A DNA stretch of 64,000 nucleotides from contig NJBH01000003.1 in the NCBI GenBank assembly GCA_005223125.1, positions 1 to 64,000 on the forward strand. Direction: 5' to 3'. Each line of letters starts with the position of its first letter. Positions within the stretch are counted from its first letter, which is position 1. The position numbers were made by a program, and so were the translations under genes. Source of the DNA: Promethearchaeota archaeon Loki_b32. GTDB lineage: Archaea; Asgardarchaeota; Lokiarchaeia; Sigyniarchaeales; SOKP01. The notes beneath the pieces were generated by a model that was not told the DNA's origin, ran no database searches, and saw only the letters and a program-made list of their open reading frames with translations. This document shows, in pieces, positions 62,269 through 64,000 of the stretch.

Positions 62269-62955
62269 TTGCTTAATCGTATAGATCTCAATGGATTCAA
62301 AAAAGTTCAAAAGGAGTATAAAAAAGACCGCTCCAAATGTAAAAAAACATTAGAGGTTAAAGGAAGATGGAGATTAGATGTTGAATATGGTCCACAATTT
62401 GAGACTAAACTAAAAACAGAAAGAGCCGGGGAAATTACGGTACAAACTGATGAAACGATTATCCTTGGAGGAGGAGGAACTGCAGTACATCCTGTTCATT
62501 ATTGCATGGCAGGTTTTTGTGGATGTTTCTCTGCAGCTTTTGCTAAATGGGCTGCAATGGCAGGAATTGAGTTAAGAAAACTTGATATTAGAATAGTTGC
62601 AGATATTGACTTAACCACAGGATTTGGGATTGAGGATGGTATTGATGCCGTGGACAACTATAAACTTGAAATATTTGTTGAGAGTGACGCACCTATAGAA
62701 AAATTAAATGAGGTTCTAGAGGCTACTAAAAAAAGGTGTTTTTGCATGTATTGTATTACGACACCAATAGTTCCTAATATAGATATGATTGTAGAAATTC
62801 CAAAGGAAAAGATGGAAGAAGCTCTTTTTATTTGTCCTACATGCTTCAATAAAACATTGGTCTTTTTAGATGATAATACACAAAAGTGCAAGAATTGTGG
62901 TACTACTGGCTACTTTACTAAACAGCCCGAACCAGAAAAAGTATCTCAAAAATAA
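62269..62955 (+). CDS. OsmC-family protein with C-terminal zinc ribbon
   Basis: The 228-residue protein starts at TTG, with GGGATGA 5 nt upstream. Residues about 20-175 form an OsmC/Ohr-like domain: VHPVHYCMAGFCGCFSAAFAKWAAMAG near the first Cys, LDIRIVADIDL, and a second Cys in KKRCFCMYCIT. Family members with these Cys are hydroperoxide reductases or sulfur-handling proteins. The C-terminal zinc ribbon (CPTCFNKTL...CKNCGTTGY) is an added domain. The extra Cys (CGC, CFCMYC) raises the chance of metal or thiol chemistry beyond classic OsmC. Confidence 0.8.
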   Translation: MLNRIDLNGFKKVQKEYKKDRSKCKKTLEVKGRWRLDVEYGPQFETKLKTERAGEITVQTDETIILGGGGTAVHPVHYCMAGFCGCFSAAFAKWAAMAGIELRKLDIRIVADIDLTTGFGIEDGIDAVDNYKLEIFVESDAPIEKLNEVLEATKKRCFCMYCITTPIVPNIDMIVEIPKEKMEEALFICPTCFNKTLVFLDDNTQKCKNCGTTGYFTKQPEPEKVSQK

Positions 62956-63042: not shown

Positions 63043-63252
63043 ATGACAGAAGAATGGCCATATGTTTCTGATAAAGATCAATATGTAAAGACTTTAGAAA
63101 AGGATTTAAAGAAGATTAAAAGTCAATTATACCAGACTCTATTAAACGCAAATAAAACTGTAATCCAAAACCAAAAACTACAAGAGCAATTAAATCAATA
63201 TCAAATTGAAAACTCTAAATTAAAGACTCAGATTAAAGATTTAACTAAATAA
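63043..63252 (+). CDS. Small coiled-coil protein (69 aa)
   Basis: It reads MTEEWPYVSDKDQYVKTLEKD at the start, followed by one continuous heptad-rich helix to the end (ANKTVIQNQKLQEQLNQYQIENSKLK). The ORF track begins at TTG 63034; the ATG at 63043, with AGAGGTTGA about 5 nt upstream, is better. No domain is known. It may act as a dimerising adaptor. It lies 90 nt upstream of the longin-like gene on the same strand. Confidence 0.6.
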   Translation: MTEEWPYVSDKDQYVKTLEKDLKKIKSQLYQTLLNANKTVIQNQKLQEQLNQYQIENSKLKTQIKDLTK

Positions 63253-63342
63253 ATTAAAAAACGAATTATCAAAATTATAGAAGAAAAATTTGAAATTATT
63301 AGTATATTAAACTAAAATTGAAAAAGTGATGTAAGTTTGAGT

Positions 63343-64000
63343 ATGGAAAAGGGTGAAATATTAGAGGAAAAAAAAGTAATAGAAAATTATGTTGAATCAA
63401 TTTACGTTTATGACAACGCTGGAGTTTGCTTGACAAGTTGCGGAATTAAACCTGAAAATTTGGATGAACATATCGTGTCTGGATTTTTCACAGCAATTAA
63501 GAAATTTGGTCAAAAATTAATTCCTGGAACTGTTGTTAAATCCTTAATAATGAGTGGTCATAAATTATTTTATAATAATTTCGAAAATATTACTTTTTGT
63601 ATTCAATGTTATGACGATCTGCCAAATCAAGTAATTGATTATATTCTAAACAGGATATCAAATCAATTTCTGGAAATTTATCAAGAACGTCTCCCAATAC
63701 GCGATGGAAATATAAGCATCTTCTCAGATTTTAGCACATATTTATCGCAGTTTATGGAACAACCGCTAATTGAAGGTTTATTAGAAGATTTTGGGTATAA
63801 AGTATTATCCGAAGGTGTGATTTTATTTGATGAAATCCGAGAAAAAATTCTTTTTGCAAAAGTTCCAGAAGAATATTCGTCAAGAAAACAAATAGCTATG
63901 AGCGGAATGTTAATTAATTTTGCTAAAAAACTATCAAATGAATATCAAGGTGGAGATGTAAACAGTATATTAATTTCTTCTGAGAATCGGTGGATTTGTA
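63343..64000 (+). CDS. Longin/roadblock-like protein, 3' end outside window
   Basis: The forward frame is open from ATG 63343 (an in-frame TTG at 63337 with GTGAT upstream is also possible) to the window edge, at least 219 codons. The first 110 residues have the alternating strand-helix pattern of a profilin-like longin or roadblock fold (VESIYVYDNAGVCLTS, HIVSGFFTAIKKFGQKL). Residues about 145-219 begin a second, similar unit (LEDFGYKVLSEGVILFDEI, ISSENRWIC). Such domains are typical partners of small GTPases and are multiplied in Asgard archaea. The assignment is by fold pattern only. Confidence 0.6.
   Translation, partial: MEKGEILEEKKVIENYVESIYVYDNAGVCLTSCGIKPENLDEHIVSGFFTAIKKFGQKLIPGTVVKSLIMSGHKLFYNNFENITFCIQCYDDLPNQVIDYILNRISNQFLEIYQERLPIRDGNISIFSDFSTYLSQFMEQPLIEGLLEDFGYKVLSEGVILFDEIREKILFAKVPEEYSSRKQIAMSGMLINFAKKLSNEYQGGDVNSILISSENRWIC

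Follow-up and report, generated by a model that had tools for sequence, protein, structure and literature searches.

A longin-roadblock gene encoded together with a Rab-type GTPase and a TRAPP/V4R-like protein in Lokiarchaea: a candidate Rab regulator of Asgard archaea

TRAPP combines Bet3-fold and longin subunits and opens Ypt1/Rab1, and the TRAPP and V4R folds serve also as ligand sensors. Tri-longin complexes act via their first longin domains on GTPases carrying a YK motif in switch I (PMC12383261), and the small GTPase MglA is regulated by MglB (PMC10933270). Longin, roadblock, Rab and TRAPPC3 proteins of Asgard archaea are already known, a longin-TRAPPC3 fusion of Heimdall and GTPase-longin/roadblock fusions have been reported, and the GTPase genes of MK-D1 are generally not in one operon with those of roadblock, longin or TRAPPC3 proteins (Tran et al. 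2024, PMC10933270). Both Rab-like GTPases and longin/roadblock proteins number in the dozens in Asgard genomes and await the pairing of regulator and GTPase, for which genome layout gives no help according to that study. The locus described here shares the phylum and the predicted folds with the proteins of Tran et al., but unlike in MK-D1 its GTPase gene is situated in an operon with roadblock, longin and TRAPP/V4R-like genes. No publication on this operon or on the gene pair at its core was found in a literature search that was incomplete.

The gene in question, LR (longin-roadblock tandem), is cut by the edge of the window, i.e. the whole 64,000-nucleotide stretch of DNA that was analysed. 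Its frame runs open to the edge from 63337 (TTG, an alternative start) or 63343 (ATG), and the initial annotation had regarded it as an unfinished gene. This proved correct when the 3' flank was obtained from the parent contig (C24 of the genome G000, 228 kb): the frame continues for 137 bases beyond the window to a stop at contig position 64137, resulting in a protein of 266 aa. The residue numbering used below starts at 63337. The full-length identity to the relatives in five other species was 83-87% and the pN/pS was 0.11-0.16, which shows LR to be coding and under purifying selection. A contig scan gave a single relative, 87% identical, from 'Candidatus Lokiarchaeota archaeon isolate 33X4'. 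The features of the locus are presented in Table 1; gene order, conservation, the domains and folds of LR and T3L and the pairing of these two genes were all determined computationally.

Table 1. Features of the LR locus. Positions are those of the window, or of the parent contig where indicated.
Feature	Position	Strand	Remarks
OsmC-like gene, C-terminal zinc ribbon	62269-62955	+	PF02566, E 8.5e-14; first gene of the co-directional string
CC, small coiled-coil gene	63043-63252	+	69 aa; ATG start common to relatives
LR gene (longin-roadblock tandem)	63343-64000	+	Open up to the window edge; 3' end taken from the parent contig
Longin domain of LR	63382-63759	+	AlphaFold2 b-b-a-b-b-b-a, residues 19-118; linker helix to 141
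Roadblock/LC7 domain of LR, first part	63766-64000	+	AlphaFold2 a-b-b-a-b-b-b-a; whole domain residues 144-259, end at contig 64113
Ras/Rab-family GTPase gene	contig 64222-64779	co-directional with LR	185 aa; PF00071, E 2.7e-37
RB, solitary roadblock gene	contig 64818-65156	co-directional with LR	112 aa; 58% identical to the second half of LR
T3L gene	contig 65172-65687	co-directional with LR	171 aa; no Pfam family

The AlphaFold2 model of LR (mean pLDDT 81.6, 28 aligned homologues) resolved the two consecutive profilin-like units suspected from the letters into a longin domain (E-E-H-E-E-E-H) followed by a roadblock domain (H-E-E-H-E-E-E-H). The check for a fold outside the longin, roadblock and profilin-like types was thus negative, and the best solved matches were longin RabGEF complexes and roadblock proteins. 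The top Foldseek matches in the PDB spanning both domains were BLOC-3, Mon1-Ccz1 and CPLANE/Fuzzy-Inturned (E 1.8e-7 to 1e-6), with a large rmsd that is probably due to a differing orientation of the domains. Ranked after these, Asgard Roadblock3 9jue matched the roadblock domain with a TMt of 0.81 and an rmsd of 2.0, and MglB with a TMt of 0.74-0.80. In Pfam, the window protein gave sub-threshold matches only, and its relatives exceeded the cut-offs of Robl_LC7 (L055 and L060) and of Fuz_longin_1, PF19036 (L065, 35.7 bits); PF13774 Longin was found sub-threshold in 16 of 20 LR family members. The NCBIfam search with LR and with T3L resulted in no match for either.

The two sequence patterns pointed out as conserved were located at residues 23-30 (YVYDNAGV, 63403-63426), in the beta1-turn-beta2 of the longin domain, and at residues 213-219 (ISSENRW, 63973-63993), in a hairpin of the roadblock domain. 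Their conservation holds within the close clade, where they read YIYDN[AS]GV and ISSE[NYS]RW, but distant homologues retain parts only, with G29 and L32 invariant and a second motif of the kind 'LRGKNKW'.

The genes of the GTPase, RB and T3L follow LR in the same direction, no gap exceeding about 95 bases. Five other Lokiarchaeal genomes, of genus g8, have the same LR-GTPase-RB-T3L order, and a sixth occurrence is cut at a contig end (L047-L051, L056). The GTPase is situated between LR and RB-T3L in every genome of the window clade, and all four genes of the cassette are under purifying selection (pN/pS 0.11-0.35). As the gene directly 3' of LR in this conserved string encodes a Ras/Rab-family GTPase, the first part of the earlier suggestion, which named GTPase regulation and membrane traffic as candidate roles, has gained strong circumstantial support, and LR is a strong candidate for an archaeal form of the eukaryotic machinery of Rab switch control. 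The adjacency alone weighs less. With about 90 GTPase candidates in the window genome, a single LR-GTPase adjacency would be expected by chance in roughly 5% by our estimate, and for this reason the evidential weight was placed on conservation, on the transfer of the cassette as a unit and on independent linkages (L086, L058).

The G1-G5 motifs of the cassette GTPase are intact (GDGGVGKT, DIAGQ, NKVD, TSAK), switch I reads DYISTVG and the catalytic Gln is kept. The closest solved structure was Rab23. The switch I form YISTVG/YISTIG is like that of Rab35 and presumably resembles Rab1-type Rabs. Prenylation cysteines were sought at the C-terminus and no Cys was found in the last 10 residues, as is likewise the case in other Asgard Rab-like proteins (PMC10933270). 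The GTPase orthologues of L103, L116 and L117 differ from those of the window clade in having Glu instead of the catalytic Gln of switch II (AGEKE). A paralogue of the cassette GTPase in the window genome, at C37, is 64% identical to it.

The structural matches of LR could mean that it is a direct archaeal homologue of the tri-longin RabGEFs (Mon1/Ccz1, Fuzzy/Inturned) with the same catalytic mechanism. BLOC-3, Mon1-Ccz1 and Fuzzy-Inturned share the consecutive longin-type domains and lead the Foldseek list, and one LR family member exceeds the PF19036 cut-off. The latter match is not specific, since many single longins of Asgard archaea match too; PF19036 exceeds its cut-off in 104 of 228 Asgard genomes, and a specific kinship of LR to Mon1/Fuzzy was rejected. 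In addition, LR has two domains in its 266 aa and not the three longin domains per chain of the tri-longin RabGEFs, and the YK motif of their substrates (PMC12383261) was looked for in the cassette GTPase and is absent, Y being followed by I. Direct homology is considered very improbable, and the missing YK motif, which disfavours the tri-longin mechanism, makes a TRAPP-like exchanger the preferred guess.

In the preferred reading, LR, RB and T3L would act as a platform that regulates the GTPase encoded with them, probably by exchanging its nucleotide; we hold this with about even confidence. LR, the first regulator gene of the cassette, would contribute the longin and roadblock domains, RB a second roadblock which duplicates that of LR, and T3L a subunit of the TRAPPC3/V4R fold. 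The three proteins could assemble into a small platform through the dimer surfaces of the longin and roadblock domains and the Bet3-like subunit. Such a platform would bind the Rab-type GTPase whose gene lies between LR and RB-T3L and, by analogy with the action of TRAPP on Ypt1/Rab1, may drive its nucleotide exchange rather than activate its GTPase reaction. In the lineages whose T3L has TM helices, it would act at a membrane. A longin, a Rab-type GTPase and a Bet3 fold, which in T3L is a predicted one, would be common to the cassette and the eukaryotic TRAPP core (Bet3/TRAPPC3 with the longins Bet5 and Trs23). In contrast to the TRAPP core, longin and roadblock are here joined in one chain, T3L has no detected TRAPP sequence homology, and the exchange activity is a proposed one. 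A further proposal goes beyond this: LR, RB and T3L would constitute a minimal counterpart in archaea of the TRAPP core, an exchange factor of longin and Bet3-fold parts that has its Rab1-like GTPase encoded alongside, and the phylum-wide LR-T3L pairs would be the ancestral state of eukaryotic TRAPP and other longin exchange factors. It is considered rather unlikely.

A different role is suggested by the second domain of LR. The roadblocks of LR and RB could constitute an MglB-like dimer, mainly GTPase-activating and possibly exchanging, with T3L as a sensor or localiser. This agrees with the match of the LR roadblock domain to MglB and with the position of a solitary roadblock gene directly 3' of the GTPase gene, and a small GTPase with a roadblock regulator is shared with MglA-MglB of Myxococcus. 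However, the cassette GTPase is of the Rab type and not of the MglA type, it retains its own catalytic Gln, the longin and TRAPP-fold parts are extra, and the conserved partner of LR throughout the phylum is T3L rather than a GTPase or a solitary roadblock. An MglB-like function is judged unlikely.

The AlphaFold2 model of T3L (pLDDT 82.7, 38 homologues) showed the order H-H-H-H-E-E-H-H-E-E-E, which fits the TRAPP/V4R pattern of four N-terminal helices and a b-b-a-a-b-b core. Foldseek matched it to the V4R sensors PoxR and MopR, to TRAPPC3/Bet3 including the Thorarchaeal TRAPPC3 7yh3, and to CesD/BcsD relatives. The E values were 2e-4 with PoxR and 1.6e-3 with Naegleria TRAPPC3, and the TMt with mouse Bet3 was 0.50; for many V4R/Bet3 entries the Foldseek probability was 0.95-1.0 at borderline TM-scores of 0.35-0.5. 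The sequence methods did not confirm the relation: the profile-profile comparison with TRAPP (hhalign) gave a probability of about 1%, the alignment first used for this comparison (A5) being poorly aligned, the Pfam search gave no TRAPP (PF04051) or V4R match, and the profile search in the PDB gave nothing. Because of these TM-scores and the missing confirmation, T3L is named TRAPP/V4R-like by its predicted fold and not a member of the TRAPP family; its putative kinship to TRAPP is one of fold only. Six positions are invariant among the 38 sequences, and C111 and C127 are the only invariant Cys, which sets T3L as a separate family apart from the Asgard TRAPPC3 with its 4-Cys zinc set (PMC10933270).

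Out of 228 Asgard genomes, 54 were found to contain T3L by a profile search independent of the position of LR. LR adjoins T3L in 49 of the 53 occurrences with enough flank, mostly less than 200 bases away, the window-clade neighbourhoods with GTPase and RB in between being counted. The four exceptions are L071, L079, one T3L-like gene of L086, which is paired with roadblocks in place of LR, and L107, where T3L is a decayed remnant. The LR tree and the T3L tree contain the same four clades, with a mirror correlation of 0.86, and the remaining neighbours vary between lineages. Based on the adjacency, the matching trees and the variable other neighbours, LR and T3L are inherited together. The T3L of clade A is soluble (window, g8, f20, f4, f19, f10), that of clade B has a single N-terminal TM helix, that of clade C several TM helices, and that of clade D is 245 aa long (f28, f15). 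The remnant in L107 (4538-4900) lies at a site syntenic with the window operon. At L106 (3937-4521) the LR-T3L locus is decaying and an in-frame deletion fuses both genes; the ORF joining them was rejected as a functional fusion.

Outside the window clade, LR-T3L is mostly found without an adjoining GTPase, and for this reason the cassette GTPase may be a bystander. LR-T3L would then be a module sensing a ligand or the membrane without a dedicated GTPase, and the GTPase a passenger from an older OsmC-CC-GTPase string. The best-scoring solved structures for T3L, the V4R domains of PoxR/MopR, are sensors, although theirs are parts of transcription activators and T3L stands as a protein of its own, which pairs with LR and in many cases is anchored in the membrane. 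Ligand binding has also been proposed for Asgard TRAPPC3 proteins (PMC10933270), OsmC-CC-GTPase occurs without LR at the locus in L116 and L117 (f3), and some general synteny of the region (OsmC, NMO) was counted against the platform. On the other hand, the GTPase is embedded within the cassette in all window-clade genomes and was apparently exchanged together with it, and GTPases are linked in L086 and L058 too. A sensing module without its own GTPase is regarded as possible but improbable.

The OsmC-like gene is 86-92% identical and syntenic in relatives. In L101 and L103, two genomes of the window's genus, OsmC-CC-GTPase is present and a clade-C LR-T3L is located divergently on the far side of OsmC. 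OsmC-CC-GTPase is older than the cassette containing LR. The initial annotation had named the upstream coiled-coil gene as a possible partner of LR; this was weakened, and since CC is linked to OsmC and the GTPase in L116, L117, L101 and L103, it is better seen as a member of the GTPase cassette.

The GTPase of the window genome was 82-86% identical to those of g8 at most loci (72% in L051) vs 69-70% to those of its own genus. Together with RB and T3L the identity to g8 was 82-87% at most loci, and close relatives of LR, RB and T3L are confined to g8. In contrast, the identity of the flanking NMO was 94% within its own genus and 74% with g8, and that of the flanking thiolase 89-94% within its own genus. 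As the inner genes match g8 and the outer genes the own genus, a transfer of the whole cassette between genera, in which the resident GTPase was displaced, is the simplest explanation. A chimeric assembly is a less probable source of the pattern; the contamination estimate of G000 is 4.6%.

The operon names one GTPase and, as its candidate regulators, three proteins of about 110-270 aa which lend themselves to co-expression, and the LR-T3L pairing offers a second, phylum-wide handle on the assignment of regulators. If LR-T3L exchanges nucleotide, a part of the eukaryotic Rab-activating machinery was already a working unit, and not just a set of separate folds, before eukaryotes arose.

TRAPP-family genes elsewhere in Asgard archaea also adjoin longin/roadblock genes. 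In f26 genomes (L126 4935-6667; L131) three genes overlap or nearly abut, which encode a PF04051 TRAPP, a V4R/TRAPP-like protein below the Pfam threshold and an LR-type longin. In f28 genomes (L124 4033-9032, L125, L136) a PF04051 TRAPP gene is preceded, twice per genome, by the gene of a protein of roughly 305-347 aa, the N-terminus of which appears roadblock-like by our reading of the sequence and has no Pfam match; one of the units then has a further V4R-like gene. Paired TRAPP matches were detected in most f28 genomes, and PF04051 had no match in the control genomes. A GTPase-RB-T3L-RB-T3L string is present in L086 (3393-5808, f10), a GTPase adjoins an LR relative in L058, and in the window genome (L006, L007, L011) an LR-type longin and a GTPase-like domain are fused in proteins of about 300 aa. 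These linkages and those of L126 and L131 were counted in favour of the platform. In L118 (5286-10937), a Rab-like GTPase gene adjoins that of a longin/P-loop/carbon-nitrogen-hydrolase fusion, which is followed by genes of a JAB protease, an E1-like (ThiF) and an E2-like (UQ_con) protein; the layout in L119 and L120 is similar.
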